DNA from: Agrobacterium sp. AGB01
GTDB lineage: Bacteria; Pseudomonadota; Alphaproteobacteria; Rhizobiales; Rhizobiaceae
Direction: 5' to 3'
Assembly: GCF_014851585.1 (NCBI RefSeq)
Contig: NZ_JACVAB010000001.1
Coordinates: 310,001-374,000, forward strand
DNA: 64,000 bases
Part shown: piece by piece, positions 10,597-19,648 of the stretch
Layout: each line of letters starts with the position of its first letter
Position numbering within the stretch: position 1 is the first letter of the stretch
Notes under the pieces: generated by a model
The model's database searches: none
Seen by the model: only the letters and a program-made list of their open reading frames with translations
What the model was told of the DNA's origin: nothing
Translations under genes and position numbers: made by a program

Positions 10597-11892
10597 ATGA
10601 GTTATATCAATAGTTCGCAGACCTATCCTGAAACACCTGCGACAGTCGATCCGGACCGCATCACCATCGCGGTCATTCTGGCAAGAATGACAGAGTTTTT
10701 TGACTTCTTTGTCTATGCCATCGCATCGGCATTGGTTTTTCCCTACGTCTTCTTCTCATACGCAGATCCGCTGACAGCAACTCTTTATTCCTTCGCAGTC
10801 TTCTCACTGGCCTTTATTGCCCGCCCCATCGGCTCAATGATTTCGCTGCAGATCGACAGAAAGTTTGGGCGTGCGGCGAAATTGACCGTCGCATTGTTCA
10901 CACTCTGTGGTTCCACCATGGCGATCAGCTTCCTGCCGTCCTTTGCGGACGCTGGCATGTTGGCGCCAGTCCTGCTCGCCGTGTTCCGTATAGGTCAGGG
11001 ACTTGGTCTGGGTGGTGCGTGGGACGGACTGACCTCGCTTCTGGCGATGAACGCACCTGCGAAACAACGTGGCTGGTATGCCATGATGCCGCAGATCGGT
11101 GCGGCCATGGGTTTTGGTCTGGCAAGCGCCTTCTTCATCGTTTTCTTCACTCAGCTTTCACATGCTGAATTCCTGGCATGGGGCTGGCGCTTCCCGTTCT
11201 TCGTGGCATTGGCACTTAATGTGCTGGCGCTGTTTGCCCGCCTTCGCATGATTGTGACGCCGGAATTTCAGGCCATGGTGCAAAGCCATGAGTTGGAACC
11301 AAAGCCGGTTTTCGAAATGCTGCGGTCGCAGTCACGCATCGTTCTGACCGGTGCCTTCGTTCCGCTGGCCAGCTTTGCACTGTTCCATTTGGTCACTGTG
11401 TTCCCGCTTAGCTGGGTCACGCTCAACACCAACCAGAAGATTTCAGACTTCCTGTTCGTACAGTTCGTTAGCGCCATCATCTGTGGTGGCATGATTGTCG
11501 TGTCCGGCGTACTGGCTGACAAATTCGGCCGTCGCAAACTGCTCGGCGTGGCCGCCATTCTTATCGCGCTCTTCAGTCTCGTAACGCCACTGCTGCTTAA
11601 CTCGGGTGATATTGGCCGTTACCTATTCGTGTTGATCGGCTTTTCGCTGCTCGGTCTGTCCTTCGGTCAGGCAAGTGGTGCGCTGGCTTCGCGTTTCAGC
11701 CGTGAATACCGCTACACCGGTGCGTCTCTGACGTCGGATATCTCTTGGCTCATCGGTGCCGGTTTCGCACCGCTGGTGGCTCTCGGGTTCTCGTCAGAAT
11801 TTGGTCTCATAGCGGCCGGACTTTATTTGCTCTCCGGCGCAGTCGCGACACTTATTGCCCTTGCATTCAGCACGACGCTTGATGCGACCTGA
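10597..11892 (+). CDS. MFS transporter, metabolite:H+ symporter (MHS) type
   Basis: 431-residue inner-membrane permease with about twelve helices. MHS subfamily marks: opening ARMTEFFDFFVYAIASALVF, the RPIGSMI loop, the FRIGQGLGLGGAWDG helix-5 motif and the ADKFGRRKLLG loop between helices 8 and 9. Relatives carry organic acids, osmolytes or shikimate; the substrate here cannot be read from sequence. Own promoter and terminator suggest a single-gene unit, separated by 393 bases from the downstream glutamate synthase gene, so a functional link with it is not established. Confidence 0.9.
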   Translation: MSYINSSQTYPETPATVDPDRITIAVILARMTEFFDFFVYAIASALVFPYVFFSYADPLTATLYSFAVFSLAFIARPIGSMISLQIDRKFGRAAKLTVALFTLCGSTMAISFLPSFADAGMLAPVLLAVFRIGQGLGLGGAWDGLTSLLAMNAPAKQRGWYAMMPQIGAAMGFGLASAFFIVFFTQLSHAEFLAWGWRFPFFVALALNVLALFARLRMIVTPEFQAMVQSHELEPKPVFEMLRSQSRIVLTGAFVPLASFALFHLVTVFPLSWVTLNTNQKISDFLFVQFVSAIICGGMIVVSGVLADKFGRRKLLGVAAILIALFSLVTPLLLNSGDIGRYLFVLIGFSLLGLSFGQASGALASRFSREYRYTGASLTSDISWLIGAGFAPLVALGFSSEFGLIAAGLYLLSGAVATLIALAFSTTLDAT

Positions 11893-11926: not shown

Positions 11927-11965
11927 AAAGCCGTGAAATTCGTAAAGGATTTCACGGCTTTTCGT
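11927..11965 (+). terminator. Terminator of the MFS gene
   Basis: Perfect 12-base arms AAGCCGTGAAAT and ATTTCACGGCTT around a nine-base loop, followed by TTCGTATTTTTATT. Begins 35 bases after the stop codon. Confidence 0.8.
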
Positions 11966-12010: not shown

Positions 12011-12213
12011 CATAGATATGTAAGTCATGCTGACATAAATTGGCACGGTGTTCGTGTCGACAGCACAATTTGGCGCGGGTCATGAAATACGTTTCGACCA
12101 TAAAATCGATGAAAGCGGCAATTGCCGGCACCGCGGTGCCAGCCAATACGCGCACGTCGATTATTCGCGCCGCGAAACGCCGATAACAGAAATCTGAAAA
12201 GGAGCAGTCAGGT

Positions 12214-12237
12214 CACCTGCGGCTCCGCCTGCGGGTG
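12214..12237 (+). other. Leader hairpin before the gltB-like start
   Basis: CACCTGCGG pairs with CTGCGGGTG (nine pairs including G-T) around a six-base loop, ending 49 bases before the ATG. A smaller GCGC...GCGC fold follows. It could be a leader structure affecting translation, but matches no riboswitch I recognise. Confidence 0.3.
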
Positions 12238-12285
12238 AAAAAGGTGACGCCTCGCTGCGCAACTGCGCCGGAACGGGAGATACCG

Positions 12286-15200
12286 ATGAGCGTGAATGAC
12301 CCTGATTATGGCCTTTATGACATTGCTGCCGAAAAGAGCAGCTGCGGCGTTGGCTTTATTACGCGCAAAGACGGTTTGCAGACCCATGACGTGCTGAAGC
12401 GTGGCCACGAGGCGCTTTGTGCTGTGCCGCATCGTGGTGGCATGTCGGCAGAGGGCGTTGGTGATGGTGCCGGTATCTCGGTGGATCTGTCCCTGTCTTT
12501 TTTTCGTCAACTGACCGGCTCTGTCGAACTGGAAGCCGGTCGGTTTGGTGTCGGTAATTTCTTCCTGCCGCAAAACGCCGCCTTCCATGATGAGGCTATT
12601 GAGATCATCGAAAAGGCACTTGAAGAACAGGGTTTCTCCGTGCTTCTGGTGCGCGATGTGCCGGTTGATAACAGCGCCATTCGTGAAGCTGCGGTTCGTT
12701 ACCAGCTTCCCATTCGCCAATGGGTGTTTTCGGCCCATGCAGGTTGCCGCGCTCGTGGCGAGTTTGACTGGCGTATCCATAAGGCCTTGCTGGCTATCGA
12801 AGCCATTGCCTACACGCGCCCGGAACTGTCGGGTTTTTATCCGCTGTCGCTGAGTGCCCGCACCCAGGTTTTCAAAGGTCGTCTCAATTCGACGGAAGTC
12901 ATGCCATACTTCTGCGACCTGGTGGACCCGCGCCATGAAGTACACACAATGTACTTTCACACCCGCTTCTCCACCAACACCGACCCGCATCCGTCCATGG
13001 CGCAGCCATTCCGCCTGATGGCGCATAATGGCGAACTGAACACCGACAAGAAGAACCGCCTTTCGGAAGCTGCTGTCGCCTTGGCACGCAATGCCAGCAT
13101 CATTCGCCCCAAGGGGCAGTCGGATAGCTGCCGTCTCGACCAGACGCTGCAGGCCCGCGTTATGGAAGACGGGCTTGATCTGGTAACTGCTGTCGTTTCG
13201 ATGATGCCGCCAGCCTGGGAAAATGACGAGACATTGTCGCCGCAAGTGCGGGCGATGTTTGAATATTTCTCCCTTTACGAAGAGAAGAACGATGGTCCCG
13301 CCGCGCTGATCTTTGGCGATGGCACCATCGTCGGTGCACGCCTGGACCGTCTGGGCTTACGCCCACTGCGCACCGTCGAAACAGACGAGTATCTCTGCGT
13401 AATGTCAGAAGCAGGCCAGATTGCCTTCCCACCGGAAAGCGTCATCCATCGCGGCCGTATCGAAGCCGGCGGCATGCTGTATTTCGATCAGGCCGAGCGC
13501 CGTGCATGGTCGACCGTCGAAGCGCTGGAAATGCTGGCATCGCGCCGCGATTATTCAACATTGCTGCGTGAAGCCCGTGTCACGCTGGAAGAGCTGCCTG
13601 AGGTTCCCGCAGAAAATCAGGGATCGCCCCAGCGTTACAATGGCGATCTGGAACGCCATCAGCGTTATGTCGCTTATTCGCACAATCAGGAAAGCTTCAA
13701 GTTCCTGATGGACCCGATGCTGGCGACTGGCGCTGAAAAAATTTCCGCCATGGGGTATGGCAACGCCATCAATGCGCTGTCGGATCAGGAAGGCGGCGTC
13801 GCGAAATATTTCTCGCAGCGTTTTGCGCAGGTCACCAATCCGCCGCTCGACAGTATCCGTGAAGCCGACGGCATGACGTTGCGCGTTGCGCTGGGCGCCA
13901 AGCCCAATATCGGCGCAAAGGCTGCCCGCCAGATCGTCGTGCGCTCTCCGATCCTGACCCATCTCGACATGTTGAAAATCCGTGAGCAGACGGAAACGCC
14001 GGTTCGTCGTTTTGAGATGCTCTACACCCCGATTTACAACGATCCCAAGGCCAACGAGGCCGCGTTGCAGGCGGGTATCGACAGTGTTTGCAACAAGGTC
14101 GCAGCCTTCGCTGCCGAAGAGGGTGGCATTGCTGTCATCACCGATCGCCACGTTGCCACTGATCGCGCTGCCCTGCCGATGATCATTGTGATCTCCGCAT
14201 TAAACCAGAAGCTGATCGAGGAAGGCCTGCGCCTTCGCGTGTCGCTGATTGCCGAAAGCGGTCAGTTCTCCTCGTCGCATCACATTGCAGCGGCTCTCGG
14301 CTTTGGTGCATCCGGCGTTTATCCGCTCGGTGTGCAGTTCCGCGCCGAGGAAAAGTTTGGTGCAGATGCCGACAAGGCCTTCAAGCGTTTCGCCAAGGCT
14401 GCTGAAAAGTCTCTGATGAAGACCATGGGCAAAGTCGGGCTCTGCACCGCTGAAAGCTATATCGGCGGTGAGTTCTTTGAACCAAACTTTCTCGACACCA
14501 ACGACCCGGTGCTGAAAAAGTACTTTCCCAACGTCAAGACGCCGGTTGGTGGTGTCAACTTTGCCGTTATCGCGCAGGCCGTCGCCGACTGGCACCGCAA
14601 GGCGTTGACCGTCAAGGGTGAGAGCGACATTCCGCTGCTTGGCCTGTTCAAGGAACGTGCCGAAGGTGCTGGCCATTCCTATGGCACCACGGCTGTGCGT
14701 GGCTTCGTTGACATGACCGAGGAAAAGATCGCGTTCCACAAGGACGCCGAAAACAGCGTTGGCGAAAACGAGGACATGTTGCGCCTGCTGCCGCTCAACC
14801 GTCTGGAAGATGCCTTCGGCCTCAACGATTCCGCCTATTACCACAACAGCTTCGACCGCCTGACACCTGAGGCAATCGACAAGTTCCAGATCACACCGGG
14901 TTATCGTGCCTTTACCCGCATGATGAGCGAAGAACGCATGCGCCGTCCATCTGCGTTGCGTGATGTGCTGGACCTGCCGGCTGACGTCACCTTTGCCAAC
15001 TCGCCTGCAGAATTCCGCAAGGAAATGGGCCGTTTTTCGCGCAAGGGCAATAACAGCTTCATGGTGCGTGGCCTGACCGTTGAGAGCGTTGGTGACGAAG
15101 AGTTCCGCCTGCGCCTCACCGGTCCGTCCGGCGGTGATCTGACACGGCTTGCAGCCCTTGGCCAATCACTGGTCATCCGTTTCGGGCAGGATATCGTCGG

Positions 15201-17796
15201 TCATTGGTTGGAAGGCGGCGCATTGGCCGTTCAAGTCAAGGGACAGGCACTGGATTACCTGTCGCTGATCCACACCGCCCCTGCCAGCATCCCGCTTGAG
15301 GATGTTCAAAAGGCAAGTGACATCACCAGACTTCTGGCCTCCGGTGCCATGAGCCATGGCGCGCTGGTTGCCGCCGCTCATGAAGCGGTGGCGCATGGCA
15401 CCAACATGGTTGGCGGCATGTCCAACTCCGGCGAAGGTGGTGAGCATATCTCGCGTTACGGCACCATACGTGCCTCGCGTATCAAGCAGTTCGCGTCCGG
15501 TCGTTTTGGCGTCTGGGCAGGTTATCTAGCTGACCCGATGCTGGAAGAGATCGAGATCAAGATCGGTCAGGGCGCAAAGCCGGGCGAGGGTGGTCAGCTG
15601 CCTTCACCAAAGGTCACGGTGGAAATCGCCGCAGCCCGTGGCGGCACACCGGGCGTTGAACTGGTTTCGCCACCACCGCACCACGACACCTATTCGATCG
15701 AGGATCTGGCGCAGCTGATCCATGATGCCAAGGCGGCGCGTGTGCGAGTTATCGTCAAGCTAGTATCGTCGGAAGGCATCGGCACGATTGCGGTTGGCGT
15801 TGCCAAGGCCGGTGCAGATGTCATCAACGTTGCCGGCAACACCGGCGGCACGGGTGCGGCTGCCGTTACCAGCCTGAAATATACCGGCCGTTCGGCGGAA
15901 ATCGGCATTGCCGAAGTGCACCAGGCACTCTGCGCCAATGGTCTGCGTGCCAAGGTTCTGCTGCGATGCTCCGGCGCACATCAGACCGCAAGTGATGTCG
16001 TCAAGTCAGCCCTCCTAGGTGGCGACAGCTTCGAATTCGGCACCACGGCGCTGATGATGCTGAAATGCGTCATGGCCAAGAACTGCAACATCAAGTGCCC
16101 GGCTGGTCTCACCACCAACCAGGAAGTGTTCAATGGTGATCCGCGCGCTCTGGCGCAGTATCTGATGAACATTGCCCACGAAACACGCGAGATCCTGGCG
16201 GCCCTTGGTCTGCAGTCTCTGGCGCAGGCACGTGGCCGTTCCGATCTTCTTCACCTTCTCGACCACCCATCCAGCGTTGGCCAGCTTGACCTCCGGGCAA
16301 TGTTGACTGTGGTTGAGGAGGTGAAGATCGCCAACCCGGTTTACATGGAAAAGGACTTCGCACTGGATGATGCTTTCATCGAACTGGTGCGTTCGGCCCT
16401 GGTCGACGGCAAGCGTGACAACATCGAGCTTGGTGGCAACCGCTTCCTCAACAACTGCAACAAGAGTGTTGGCGGTCAGCTTGCGGTCGATATCGAGCGC
16501 ATTCTGAACCATGAACTGAGCGATGAGCAGGTGGCGACACTGCCTGCCGTCCGCCAGGATGAACGTGGTCGTCGTTTTCTGGAGCCCGGTGCCGTGCGTA
16601 TCGCCACATCGGGGTCTGCCGGTCAATCCTTCGGTGCCTTCTGCAATGACGGCATGGTCATGGTCCACACCGGCACCTGCAATGACGGTGTTGGCAAGAG
16701 CGCCTGCGGCGGTACCATTGTCGTGCGTTCGCCAGGTGGTGGTTCGGCCGAGGCTGGTGGCAATGTTCTAGTTGGCAACTTCGCCCTGTTCGGTGCAACG
16801 GGTGGCCGCACCTTTGTTGAAGGGCAGGCGGGTGACCGTTTTGCGGTGCGTAACTCCGGTGCGACAGCGGTTGTTGAAGGTGTGGGCGACTTTGCCTGCG
16901 AATACATGACCAATGGTGCGGTCCTGAACCTTGGCAGCTTCGGCAAGGGTTTCGGAAACGGCATGAGTGGCGGTTTCGTTTACCAGTATGACCCCTATGG
17001 CGATCTGCCAAAGAAGGTCAGCCACGATTCCATTCTTCTGGGCTCTATCACGGGTGATGATGAACAGGCCGCGATCCATAATCAGGCCGTTCACCAGCTG
17101 CTAAGCTGGCATGTTGCCGAAACCGGTTCTGCCAAGGCCGCATGGCTTCTGGAAAACTGGGAGAGCGAGCAGCATAACTTCGTGTACGGAATGCCGCGCG
17201 CCCTGCTGCTCTACCAGGACAGCAACGAAATCCTGAAGGCAAAGCCACGCAAGGAACTGCTTGAAGAACTGGCAACGGCGCTTGCAGCCCATCAGGTTCG
17301 CAAGTTCAAGCTGGCCTATCGTGACAAGCGGGCGGTACTGAACGGTTCGGTACCTGGTTATGGCGAGACCGATACCGAGGAGATGTACGCGCTCCTCAAC
17401 AATTACACGGTGCTGAGCATGGCGCAGGCCATTGCCATGCAGCGTGTACCGCTAGCGCGCGGTCCGTCCGACCCGGCGATTGAAAAGGCGGTACGCAACC
17501 TCATTCTGACCGAAGATTTTGCGCTGATGCAACGTCTGCTGAAATATGCACGTGAAGCATTGGCCGGCCACAATGACGAGCAGCTTGCTGTTATGATCGC
17601 CGCCAAGCGACTGGACGACTACAGGCAGGCGCTTTCCAAGCGCAACATCCTGTCTATGGACAGCCCGGGCACCTATGGCTGGATCATTCAGCAGAACGCC
17701 AGAAACATTGAAAAGATCGGACGCCTGCCGGGCTTCGAGGAACTGTTCGCAGCCAATGCGTTGCCGGACCTTGCCCTCGCAGCCAGACAGAACTGA
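12286..17796 (+). CDS. gltB: Glutamate synthase large-subunit-like protein, enlarged form
   Basis: 1836 residues from the ATG at 12286 (GGGAGA five bases upstream; a GTG at 12235 is less likely). Order: short propeptide then catalytic Cys20 (SSCGVGF) of the class-II glutaminase domain (20 to about 430), central domain, FMN/(3Fe-4S) synthase domain with GQGAKPGEGGQLP and PPPHHDTYSIEDL, cluster cysteines C1261, C1267, C1271, and a GXGXG helix domain (about 1430-1580). Family role: glutamine + 2-oxoglutarate + 2 e- to two glutamates. Odd points: bacterial GltB is about 1500 residues; here roughly 140 extra residues lie before the cluster and about 190 after the usual C-terminus, and the cysteine spacing is x5/x3 rather than x5/x4. 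No gltD is adjacent; a CysJ-type reductase follows by 28 bases. It may be a paralogue with a different donor or substrate. Confidence 0.85.
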   Translation: MSVNDPDYGLYDIAAEKSSCGVGFITRKDGLQTHDVLKRGHEALCAVPHRGGMSAEGVGDGAGISVDLSLSFFRQLTGSVELEAGRFGVGNFFLPQNAAFHDEAIEIIEKALEEQGFSVLLVRDVPVDNSAIREAAVRYQLPIRQWVFSAHAGCRARGEFDWRIHKALLAIEAIAYTRPELSGFYPLSLSARTQVFKGRLNSTEVMPYFCDLVDPRHEVHTMYFHTRFSTNTDPHPSMAQPFRLMAHNGELNTDKKNRLSEAAVALARNASIIRPKGQSDSCRLDQTLQARVMEDGLDLVTAVVSMMPPAWENDETLSPQVRAMFEYFSLYEEKNDGPAALIFGDGTIVGARLDRLGLRPLRTVETDEYLCVMSEAGQIAFPPESVIHRGRIEAGGMLYFDQAERRAWSTVEALEMLASRRDYSTLLREARVTLEELPEVPAENQGSPQRYNGDLERHQRYVAYSHNQESFKFLMDPMLATGAEKISAMGYGNAINALSDQEGGVAKYFSQRFAQVTNPPLDSIREADGMTLRVALGAKPNIGAKAARQIVVRSPILTHLDMLKIREQTETPVRRFEMLYTPIYNDPKANEAALQAGIDSVCNKVAAFAAEEGGIAVITDRHVATDRAALPMIIVISALNQKLIEEGLRLRVSLIAESGQFSSSHHIAAALGFGASGVYPLGVQFRAEEKFGADADKAFKRFAKAAEKSLMKTMGKVGLCTAESYIGGEFFEPNFLDTNDPVLKKYFPNVKTPVGGVNFAVIAQAVADWHRKALTVKGESDIPLLGLFKERAEGAGHSYGTTAVRGFVDMTEEKIAFHKDAENSVGENEDMLRLLPLNRLEDAFGLNDSAYYHNSFDRLTPEAIDKFQITPGYRAFTRMMSEERMRRPSALRDVLDLPADVTFANSPAEFRKEMGRFSRKGNNSFMVRGLTVESVGDEEFRLRLTGPSGGDLTRLAALGQSLVIRFGQDIVGHWLEGGALAVQVKGQALDYLSLIHTAPASIPLEDVQKASDITRLLASGAMSHGALVAAAHEAVAHGTNMVGGMSNSGEGGEHISRYGTIRASRIKQFASGRFGVWAGYLADPMLEEIEIKIGQGAKPGEGGQLPSPKVTVEIAAARGGTPGVELVSPPPHHDTYSIEDLAQLIHDAKAARVRVIVKLVSSEGIGTIAVGVAKAGADVINVAGNTGGTGAAAVTSLKYTGRSAEIGIAEVHQALCANGLRAKVLLRCSGAHQTASDVVKSALLGGDSFEFGTTALMMLKCVMAKNCNIKCPAGLTTNQEVFNGDPRALAQYLMNIAHETREILAALGLQSLAQARGRSDLLHLLDHPSSVGQLDLRAMLTVVEEVKIANPVYMEKDFALDDAFIELVRSALVDGKRDNIELGGNRFLNNCNKSVGGQLAVDIERILNHELSDEQVATLPAVRQDERGRRFLEPGAVRIATSGSAGQSFGAFCNDGMVMVHTGTCNDGVGKSACGGTIVVRSPGGGSAEAGGNVLVGNFALFGATGGRTFVEGQAGDRFAVRNSGATAVVEGVGDFACEYMTNGAVLNLGSFGKGFGNGMSGGFVYQYDPYGDLPKKVSHDSILLGSITGDDEQAAIHNQAVHQLLSWHVAETGSAKAAWLLENWESEQHNFVYGMPRALLLYQDSNEILKAKPRKELLEELATALAAHQVRKFKLAYRDKRAVLNGSVPGYGETDTEEMYALLNNYTVLSMAQAIAMQRVPLARGPSDPAIEKAVRNLILTEDFALMQRLLKYAREALAGHNDEQLAVMIAAKRLDDYRQALSKRNILSMDSPGTYGWIIQQNARNIEKIGRLPGFEELFAANALPDLALAARQN

Positions 17797-17824
17797 CTGA
17801 GACAGATTGAACTGAGTGAGAACG

Positions 17825-19600
17825 ATGAAGATACCTTACATTCCAGAAGATGCTCCGTTCAATGGCGACCAGCGTGCATGGTTGTCAGGTTTTCTGGCCG
17901 GCCTGCACTCACGCATCAGTATTGGTGGTGAAGGCTCTACAGCCGTGGCCGCAGGTCAGTCTCCGAAGGCCGCAGCTGCGGTACTGAATGTACTCTACGG
18001 CACGCAAACAGGTAATGCCGAAGGACTGGCGATGGACATAGCGGCCGCTGCCCGCACACAGGGCATGCAGCCAGTTGTCACCGCATTGGACGATATTTCC
18101 ATGGAAAACCTCGCTGTTATGAAGCGGGTGATCGTGGTTGCCTCGACCTATGGCGAAGGTGAAATGCCCGACAATGCCCAACTGTTCTGGGATGCGCTTT
18201 CCGCCGATACCGCGCCACGGTTGGAAACCGTCAATTTTGCGGTGCTGGCGCTGGGTGACACCGGCTATGACGGCTTTTGCCAGGCTGGCAAACTGATCGA
18301 TACACGCTTTGAGCAACTGGGTGCCAAGCGCCTGCATGCCCGCCTTGATTGCGATATCGATTATGAAGATGCCGCTGCCGCTTGGATTGGTGAGGCACTG
18401 CCCGTCGCTGGCGCTATCGATGGTGGTGATGTCGCTGCGAATGCAGTTCCAGTCGCTGCTGCGGAACCGGCTAGGGCGAAGTCCGCATGGAACCGCAAGA
18501 ACCCGTTCTCTTCGGTTGTCTCGGTCAATCGTCGCCTGTCGGGTATCGATTCCGCCAAGGAAATCCGTCACTATGAATTCGATCTCGGTGACAGTGGTCT
18601 GGAATATGAAGCCGGTGACGCCTTGGGTGTTGTCCCGTTCAATGACCCGGCACTGGTTGACGCCATTCTCCAGCGTCTTGGTGCCAAAGCTGATGATGCC
18701 GTTGCCGGCCTCGATCAGCCACTTGGCGATGCCCTGCTGAAACAGTTTGAAATTTCGACCCCGTCTCGCGAACTGGTGCAGGATGTTGGCAAGCGTGCCA
18801 ATCATGAAGAGCTGAACCATATCTTGCGCAATGGTGACAAGCAGGCGCTGGACGCCTTCCTATGGAGCAAGGACACACTTGATCTCCTGTCGCTTAACTC
18901 GGCGATGGATTTGAACGTGGCAGATTTTGTGAAGCTGCTGAAGCCGCTGCAGCATCGCGCTTATTCCATCTCGTCCAGCCCATTTGCCGCCGAAGGTAGC
19001 GTACATCTCACCATTGCCAGCGTGCGTTACCACGCGCAGGGTCGTGATCATGGTGGTGTTTGCTCAACCTATCTGGCCGACCGCGTTGCGCAGGGGGAAA
19101 ATGCCGGTATCTTCGTGTCGCAGAACAAGGCCTTTCGTGTGCCAGCCAACAATGACGCACCCATGATCATGGTTGGTCCCGGTACCGGCATTGCACCATT
19201 CCGTGCCTTCCTGCAGGAACGGCAGCAGCGTGGTGCCAAGGGCAAGAACTGGCTATTCTTCGGTGATCAGCATCGTGCCAATGACTTCATATACGAGCAG
19301 GAACTGGGCGAAATGAGCAGCAACGGCGTTTTGACACGCCTTGATCTGGCTTTCTCCCGCGATCAGGCAGAAAAAATCTACGTGCAGACCCGCATGAAGG
19401 AAAACGGCAAGGCGCTCTATGCCTGGTTGGAAGAAGGCGGCCATTTCTACGTTTGCGGTGATGCAACACGCATGGCCAAGGATGTCGACGATGCCTTGCA
19501 TGATATCGTTGCCAGCCATGGCGGCCTGTCAGCGGAAGCCGCGGGTGATTACGTCAATGGGCTGAAGCGCGAGAAGCGATATCTGCGCGACGTTTATTGA
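17825..19600 (+). CDS. cysJ: CysJ-type NADPH diflavin reductase
   Basis: 591 residues from ATG 17825 (a GTG at 17816 would add three). Same layout and length as E. coli CysJ: N-terminal helix region with AWLSGFLAG, flavodoxin FMN domain with YGTQTGNAEG (58-67), STYGEGEMPDN and LGDTGYDGFCQ, FAD domain with HRAYSISSSP, NADPH domain with VGPGTGIAPFRAF, YVCGDATRMAKDV and the terminal YLRDVY. CysJ passes NADPH electrons via FAD and FMN to the sulfite reductase haemoprotein CysI. No cysI lies here; instead the gene follows the gltB-like gene by 28 bases with no terminator between. It may feed that synthase, or may serve a CysI encoded elsewhere. Family assignment is firm, partner is inference. Confidence 0.88.
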   Translation: MKIPYIPEDAPFNGDQRAWLSGFLAGLHSRISIGGEGSTAVAAGQSPKAAAAVLNVLYGTQTGNAEGLAMDIAAAARTQGMQPVVTALDDISMENLAVMKRVIVVASTYGEGEMPDNAQLFWDALSADTAPRLETVNFAVLALGDTGYDGFCQAGKLIDTRFEQLGAKRLHARLDCDIDYEDAAAAWIGEALPVAGAIDGGDVAANAVPVAAAEPARAKSAWNRKNPFSSVVSVNRRLSGIDSAKEIRHYEFDLGDSGLEYEAGDALGVVPFNDPALVDAILQRLGAKADDAVAGLDQPLGDALLKQFEISTPSRELVQDVGKRANHEELNHILRNGDKQALDAFLWSKDTLDLLSLNSAMDLNVADFVKLLKPLQHRAYSISSSPFAAEGSVHLTIASVRYHAQGRDHGGVCSTYLADRVAQGENAGIFVSQNKAFRVPANNDAPMIMVGPGTGIAPFRAFLQERQQRGAKGKNWLFFGDQHRANDFIYEQELGEMSSNGVLTRLDLAFSRDQAEKIYVQTRMKENGKALYAWLEEGGHFYVCGDATRMAKDVDDALHDIVASHGGLSAEAAGDYVNGLKREKRYLRDVY

Positions 19601-19614
19601 TTGCCTTGAAAGAA

Positions 19615-19648
19615 AAAATCCTCAGGGGCGGCCTCGAGGATTTTACGG
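19615..19648 (+). terminator. Terminator of the gltB-cysJ unit
   Basis: Arms AAAATCCTC (19615-19623) and GAGGATTTT (19636-19644) around a twelve-base GC-rich loop, fifteen bases after the cysJ stop. The only terminator in the pair, supporting a two-gene transcript; could also serve the converging tad-like gene. Confidence 0.65.

Follow-up and report, generated by a model that had tools for sequence, protein, structure and literature searches.

When ammonium is scarce, it enters biosynthesis mainly through glutamate synthase. The locus considered here raises the question of how electrons reach this enzyme when the gene beside its large subunit is not gltD but that of a flavoprotein reductase. 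The locus lies in a 64,000-nucleotide stretch of Agrobacterium sp. AGB01 (contig NZ_JACVAB010000001.1, positions 310,001 to 374,000), which as a whole is called the window below; all features described in it are on the + strand. A gltB-type gene (12286..17796, ATG at 12286 and stop at 17796) encodes an 1836-residue variant of the glutamate synthase large subunit, and a gap of 28 nt (17797-17824) separates it from the gene of a CysJ-type NADPH diflavin reductase of 591 amino acids (17825..19600). The latter is read from an in-frame ATG at 17825, and an alternative GTG at 17816 would give 594 amino acids. An earlier sequence-only reading of the window had described both genes at these places, 28 bases apart, with a complete CysJ-like protein and no gltD beside them, and the coordinates and domains bear this out, no GltD being adjacent in the window.

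Together, the two genes very probably specify a single NADPH-dependent glutamate synthase, a separate type in which the diflavin reductase would supply the electrons instead of GltD. In this enzyme glutamine would be hydrolysed at Cys20, the ammonia channelled to 2-oxoglutarate, and the imine reduced by the flavin mononucleotide (FMN) of the large subunit, as in ordinary GltB; this chemistry is proposed because the residues are conserved and the known enzyme works in this way (PMC8097209). Electrons would pass from NADPH to flavin adenine dinucleotide (FAD), then to the FMN of the flavodoxin domain, then as single electrons to the [3Fe-4S] cluster, and from there to the large-subunit FMN. This entry through the reductase is strongly suggested by the genomic record, because the two genes are paired and GltD is absent. 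A remodelled cluster loop, perhaps together with an insert and a C-terminal extension of the large subunit, would form the docking face for the reductase.

The large subunit carries the four GltB domains in the usual order (GATase_2, Glu_syn_central, Glu_synthase and GXGXG). Domain matches place the class II glutaminase domain, with Cys20 in the nucleophile position, at residues 20-425 (12343..13560), Glu_syn_central at residues 460-732 (13663..14481), the FMN/synthase domain at residues 997-1309 (15274..16212), and the GXGXG beta-helix domain at residues 1423-1594 (16552..17067). Alignment locates the presumed [3Fe-4S] cysteines, C1261, C1267 and C1271, at 16066..16098. The equivalog model for GltB (NF008730) is narrowly passed, with 1052.8 bits against a cut-off of 1047. 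For comparison across genomes, a scan of genome contigs gave at least 597 pattern matches, at least 538 of them confirmed, and the best 80 form a set that leans to close relatives. Seventeen of 18 active-site and Fe-S positions checked are identical in 80/80 of these loci (Cys20, R50, N248, G249, D280, M489, E1050, E1053, R1073, K1092, Q1095, K1098, Q1104, R1118, C1261, C1267 and C1271), and the eighteenth, K1067, is found in 79; the view that the glutaminase cysteine and the FMN and Fe-S domains are kept therefore holds, although Cys20 is nearly, not fully, invariant in an alignment of 18 proteins that includes the one from the window. Across 29 variant and 9 canonical rows, 228 alignment columns are invariant and identical. 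Q1095, K1098, Q1104 and R1118 presumably form the 2-oxoglutarate site. The roles of the checked residues are likewise our assumption, except those of Cys1 and Met479, which are taken from the literature (PMC8097209). M489 aligns with the methionine of a GSMGD segment and is taken to be Met479 of the Azospirillum enzyme, a residue named as near the electron path (PMC8097209).

Set beside GltBD (EC 1.4.1.13) of Escherichia coli and Azospirillum brasilense, the variant thus shares the four-domain large subunit, the glutaminase cysteine, the FMN and 2-oxoglutarate residues and the three Fe-S cysteines, and NADPH is the presumed donor in both. It differs in having a diflavin reductase in place of GltD, the partner that carries two [4Fe-4S] clusters and is not found adjacent to the variant, and in sharing only about 30-44% identity with the canonical protein in the aligned parts. 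Two regions are additional. Alignments to glutamate synthases in the PDB break between residues about 777-800 and 990-1002 and end near residue 1640, which leaves an insert without counterpart in canonical GltB at about residues 840-985 (14803..15240, limits approximate) and, at the C-terminus, an extension of some 190 residues, at about residues 1645-1836 (17218..17793). The extension is matched to no known family and has no match among PDB sequences up to an E value of 1. A Pfam comparison of the extension in 23 members gave hits to three families (in 3, 2 and 1 of them; best E value 0.003), which were judged chance.

The cluster motif itself also departs from the canonical enzyme. The spacing is Cx5Cx3C in 89/89 loci, whereas it is Cx5Cx4C in the five canonical rows shown, and the loop behind the motif is shortened; therefore, the region of electron entry around the cluster has changed. 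In the ferredoxin-dependent glutamate synthase of cyanobacteria and plants, the large subunit also works without GltD and accepts one-electron donors at its [3Fe-4S] cluster. However, the variant has the gene of an NADPH reductase beside it, and its 1836 residues compare with 1520 in the PDB chain of the ferredoxin enzyme. The alignment shows no ferredoxin-loop insertion at what we take to be the position of that loop.

The reductase lies directly 3′ of the gltB variant in 78/80 loci, and the other two (L081 and L092) are truncated within the large gene by the contig end. Because the arrangement recurs in 78/80 related loci, it is not due to chance. Gaps between the two genes range from -23 to 189 nt, with the exception of L077 (1033 nt), where the alignment of the large gene stops early. 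The large gene is interrupted at G458:C1:2057159-2062650, where it is split in two frames, and its alignment ends early in L077; decay or sequencing error could account for either. The 80 loci comprise 41 from Alpha-, 20 from Gamma- and 2 from Betaproteobacteria, 16 from Actinomycetota and 1 from Verrucomicrobiota (a metagenome-assembled genome, MAG, of Verrucomicrobiales). The adjacency therefore extends well beyond a few close relatives, to which the sequence-only reading had allowed that it might be confined. Five of nine plasmid records at 60% identity or more were examined. One carries no annotation, and the same pair is present in 4/4 annotated ones, where the large gene is named glutamate synthase (large subunit or -related protein) and its neighbour sulfite reductase alpha subunit.

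Presence and absence of the two genes also coincide in genome samples, which overlap with one another and with the 80 loci (L060, L066 and L095 seem to come from genomes G226, G425 and G575). In the genus of the window, 23 of 39 genomes carry the large protein and the same 23 carry the adjoining reductase; a 24th, G474, has only a 50% relative of the reductase. In an even draw of 398 Pseudomonadota genomes, six contain the large protein (cut-off 1e-150), the window's own included, and the five others are all paired. These six also give the six best reductase matches (49-65% identity in the other five); every further match, whether a second copy or one from 68 other genomes, is at 47% or below. 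A set of 385 genomes of the class has three with the variant, again including the window's own, and both others have the adjoining reductase. The family is thus patchy, occurring in about 1-2% of sampled species, and no complete locus without its reductase partner was met in the sets examined. The pair is kept even in relatives at 52-55% identity (G252 and G114). In the G114 locus (L102), a GltD-like frame (12029-12919), truncated where the fetched stretch ends, lies just upstream of the pair, so that this genome may have canonical and variant genes next to each other. A 2409-residue open frame in G761 seemed to be a fusion of gltB and the reductase and was rejected, reading instead as two genes with a stop at 11012 and an ATG at 11028 of L127; with this candidate checked, no natural fusion was found.

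The gltB variant and the reductase are a fixed unit. Across 77 loci, duplicates among them, identity distances for the large protein and for the reductase are correlated (r 0.95), and the nearest relatives indicated by the two proteins broadly agree. A tree of 27 rows separates the variant from canonical GltB by a long branch (support 100); within the variant part, Actinomycetota stand among Proteobacteria, and Erwiniaceae stand beside a betaproteobacterium. This pattern fits transfer of the pair as one cassette, also between phyla.

A third gene recurs behind the pair in part of the family. It was assessed in 89 loci that have the reductase and enough sequence behind it, with a few duplicate genomes among them; four more could not be judged. 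In 20/89, a HemS-like gene lies on the same strand directly 3′ of the reductase, as detected by a profile of 14 proteins (L013, L014, L025, L027, L028, L032, L033, L035, L039, L042, L046, L052, L061, L063, L065, L074, L076, L079, L082 and L086). None was found in 68/89 loci, the window included, and in L080 the sole match is weak and lies at a distance of 7.7 kb. The idea that nothing recurs beyond the pair outside close relatives is overturned by these 20 loci. The hosts are Actinomycetota (mycobacteria, Nocardiaceae and Tsukamurella) and Alphaproteobacteria (Azorhizobium, Hyphomicrobium, Methylopila, Hansschlegelia, Roseibium, Rhodobacterales and two Rhizobiaceae). Eight members were scanned with the Pfam family HemS (PF05171), of which five pass the cut-off, two match more weakly and one has no match; an NCBIfam scan of the members gave no match, and the best frame of the L025 match aligns over just 72 residues. 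The Azorhizobium member aligns over ~250 residues with solved haem-handling proteins of the HemS/PhuS type (E 4.6e-12). Proteins of the HemS type bind or degrade haem, and the neighbour makes iron or haem supply the probable context of the pair in these hosts. A further hint of iron is seen in L013, on a Ketogulonicigenium plasmid, where genes for a TonB-dependent siderophore receptor and an iron-siderophore binding protein, as well as fhuB, are found close to the pair. A wider cluster of neighbours, with 38 frames from 33 loci, occurs at many different distances and appears to be a single common class of gene.

Canonical GltBD has one [3Fe-4S] and two [4Fe-4S] clusters (PMC8097209), and the variant pair would need 3 iron atoms per protomer against 11. 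Because the pair would have a single cluster, it may be iron-sparing, a speculation that the HemS-like neighbour helps; that neighbour leaves the odds for the electron route unchanged.

The HemS-like gene also bears on another explanation, in which the large subunit is a true glutamate synthase that takes its electrons from ferredoxin or free flavodoxin, the reductase feeding those carriers or another protein such as the HemS-like one. As in the ferredoxin enzyme, no GltD stands beside the large subunit; CysJ-type reductases can presumably reduce free carriers, and HemS-type haem degraders, we assume, need an electron donor, for which the gene 3′ of the reductase in 20/89 loci would be a candidate. 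Nevertheless, the 68/89 loci where no such gene was found include the window, the adjacency in 78/80 loci and the joint presence and absence within the genus speak for a dedicated partner, the reductase brings a flavodoxin domain of its own, and the ferredoxin-loop insertion was not seen at its presumed position. An electron supply by free carriers is therefore unlikely.

The reductase was named by the sequence-only reading as a possible partner of sulfite reductase, beside gltB by coincidence, and its family membership is accordingly of interest. It consists of Flavodoxin_1, FAD_binding_1 and NAD_binding_1 domains, with the FMN-binding flavodoxin domain at 17990..18385 and the FAD- and NADP-binding domains at 18491..19489 (domain matches). 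This order of flavodoxin, FAD and NADP domains is that of CysJ of the NADPH sulfite reductase, and similarity to the CysJ model TIGR01931 covers nearly the full length; however, its score of 634.7 bits is below the cut-off of 668.15, and the gene stands beside gltB rather than cysI. The broader model for sulfite reductase subunit alpha (NF004859) is passed, with 491.1 against 432. In a quick tree of 36 rows, 29 paired reductases fall on one side of a branch (SH-aLRT 91), and three NasA-fused (99) and three CysI-paired (99) reductases stand apart from them. The mycobacterial protein L120 (G014:C2:25681-27291) falls among the paired reductases; the tree program warned of long branches, so that details are unsure. 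A second CysJ-type protein close to this group, likewise with no GltB variant found beside it, is the one in G474 (G474:C34:43801-45471).

For a role with CysI, the named matches of the reductase are sulfite reductase alpha subunits, and the genome of the window does hold a CysI-like protein, in a cluster that we take to be of the cobA-DUF2849-CysI type, as well as no other CysJ-type protein except inside a 1422-residue frame, which contains the single other PF00667 match. Yet a PF01077 match in a CysI-sized frame is present in 39/39 genomes of the genus, against 23 with the reductase, and 15 of the 39 lack any CysJ-type match at E values up to 1e-60, and another has just the 50% relative. Furthermore, a separate CysJ over the cut-off exists in 15/16 Erwiniaceae-type genomes, the copy in G031 being split in two frames, and an E. 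coli CysI query finds no match in loci L011-L106. Two other CysJ loci inspected (Pantoea L109 and SAR92 L119) have CysJ followed by CysI. Together with the TIGR01931 score, these results disfavour service to sulfite reductase, and an incidental adjacency to gltB is extremely unlikely. The 1422-residue frame, which we take to be a NasA-CysJ fusion, has its CysJ-type module at G000:C17:31317-33104 and would mark another case in which this type of reductase was recruited to nitrogen assimilation. The module shares 45% identity with the window reductase and likewise belongs to a nitrogen-assimilation enzyme, but it is part of a larger frame and falls in a separate tree group.

Whether the variant makes glutamate in vivo can be approached through genomes in which it stands alone. 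The genomes of 48 of the 80 loci were tested with PF01645 at 1e-30 for GltB and with TIGR01317 at E values up to 1e-20 for GltD. The variant is the only GltB in 20/48, with no other GltB-sized or truncated match at 1e-30; two of the 20 (G027 and G029) have an extra PF01645 match in a frame of 445-446 amino acids, too short for GltB. A full-length canonical GltB coexists in 27/48, and G012, with a 608-residue frame taken as a partial canonical copy, is left out of the 20. No GltD match was found in 18/20 of the genomes with the variant as only GltB, and G036 and G038 have only sub-cut-off matches, in longer frames; four control genomes all have GltD over the cut-off. In G027, G029 and G030, 41 GltD candidates each were scored, of 42, 47 and 43. 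Pantoea, Erwinia, Mixta and a record labelled as Enterobacter ludwigii account for 16 of the 20, and the other four are two MAGs (SAR92 and HTCC2207), Methylobacillus rhizosphaerae and a Rhodospirillaceae MAG. Incompleteness of MAGs may lie behind some of the absences; P. agglomerans HJS002, however, is recorded as a complete chromosome. In the 17 Erwiniaceae-type loci, none of which has a GltD match, arcB lies upstream in 17/17 and sspB-sspA downstream in 16/17 (L059 is the exception). The order in E. coli K-12 is arcB-yhcC-gltB-gltD-gltF ... sspB-sspA, and since the flanks match, the pair occupies the gltBD locus in Erwiniaceae. In some plant-associated bacteria, the pair appears to have replaced the standard enzyme.

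Genetic evidence is available for one of these species. According to a 2025 paper, no close homolog of the E. coli glutamate synthase was found in P. ananatis AJ13355, whose putative gltB (PAJ_RS19710) is 64% identical to an Agrobacterium large subunit, and the paper cites Hara et al. (2012) for glutamate auxotrophy upon gltB knockout in P. ananatis (PMC12364357). The variant of P. ananatis LMG 2665 (G030), a genome with no other GltB, shares 68% identity with Agrobacterium variants and 32-39% with the canonical GltB of the window's genome. Because of the 64% identity and the LMG 2665 copy, the sole GltB there, we infer that the gene knocked out in P. ananatis belongs to the variant family.

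These results also address the proposal that the large subunit is a glutamine-dependent reductive aminase with another product or keto acid, glutamate synthesis being a side role. The long separate branch, an insert and extension matched to no function, and the coexistence of canonical GltB (full-length in 27/48 genomes, partial in 1) would suit such an enzyme. On the other hand, Q1095, K1098, Q1104 and R1118, which we take to be the 2-oxoglutarate positions, are identical in 80/80 loci, the variant is the only GltB in 20/48 genomes, and loss of gltB in P. ananatis reportedly leads to glutamate auxotrophy (PMC12364357). Another main product is consequently very unlikely.

Several points weigh against reading the pair as one enzyme. 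The genome of the window also has a canonical GltB (C17:224786) and GltD (C17:227157), together on another contig, which answers whether a separate gltBD exists there. Reductases close to the paired ones exist with no GltB variant found beside them (L120 and G474), and the distance correlation is expected of any linked pair. AJ13355 gltB is assigned through its stated 64% identity and the LMG 2665 copy and not through its own sequence, and the main text of the 2025 paper lacks the terms sulfite reductase, cysJ and flavoprotein (PMC12364357). No assay of the pair was found in the literature. Weighed together with these points, the pair nevertheless likely represents a further class of electron input beside GltD and ferredoxin: a reductase docking on a rebuilt [3Fe-4S] face, possibly iron-sparing or oxidant-tolerant, carried as a cassette across phyla and replacing gltBD in Erwiniaceae. 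In the part of its section on glutamate synthase covered here, a 2021 review gives only the GltD-type (NADPH or NADH) and ferredoxin-type inputs (PMC8097209). No published description of the pairing surfaced by title or start of abstract in a search that left most subscription literature outside; the pair is a glutamate synthase variant new to the literature searched, from which absence in print is not established.

The surroundings of the pair offer some hints of its expression. Upstream, a terminator-like hairpin with a 15-pair stem and T-rich tail (11927..11961) closes a transporter gene presumed to be of the MFS type and separates it from the pair; it is the one hairpin found by the upstream scan, and shuffled sequences give a mean of 0.6. 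Downstream, the single terminator described by the sequence-only reading is the weakest part of that account: a hairpin at 19615..19644 folds as a possible terminator (-17.7 kcal/mol and a z score of -0.98 for the 63-nt stretch that contains it), but a scan for consensus terminators downstream of the reductase gene found none. A promoter-like block common to Rhizobiaceae copies contains an imperfect inverted repeat, GTAAGTCATGCTGAC (12020..12034), as a possible operator. The strict form of the repeat (GTMAGCA..CTGAC) occurs in 12/23 Rhizobiaceae upstream regions, among them that of the window, and TTGACT/C occurs in 22/23, the window being the exception. The recurrent block suggests a dedicated regulator of the gltB variants.

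The leader also contains a putative coding frame of 34 codons (12082..12186), compared by eye. Small open reading frames of ~32-34 codons with basic C-terminal residues, followed by a GC-rich hairpin, lie 5′ of the large gene in part of the Rhizobiaceae, with counterparts in L015-L019, L024, L030, L038, L047, L049 and L077. The product could be a leader peptide. An Rfam search of the leader gave no match, and the fold of the 241-nt leader has a z score of -1.28.

Ultimately, the pair suggests an unrecognised electron route into a core metabolic step. If true, this would be a new electron input by which Pantoea, Erwinia and others carry out ammonium assimilation through glutamate synthase without GltD, and an example of a core enzyme swapping its reductase. 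The database name of the partner as a sulfite reductase subunit would then need correcting, and the finding would be of relevance for P. ananatis, a species used in biotechnology.

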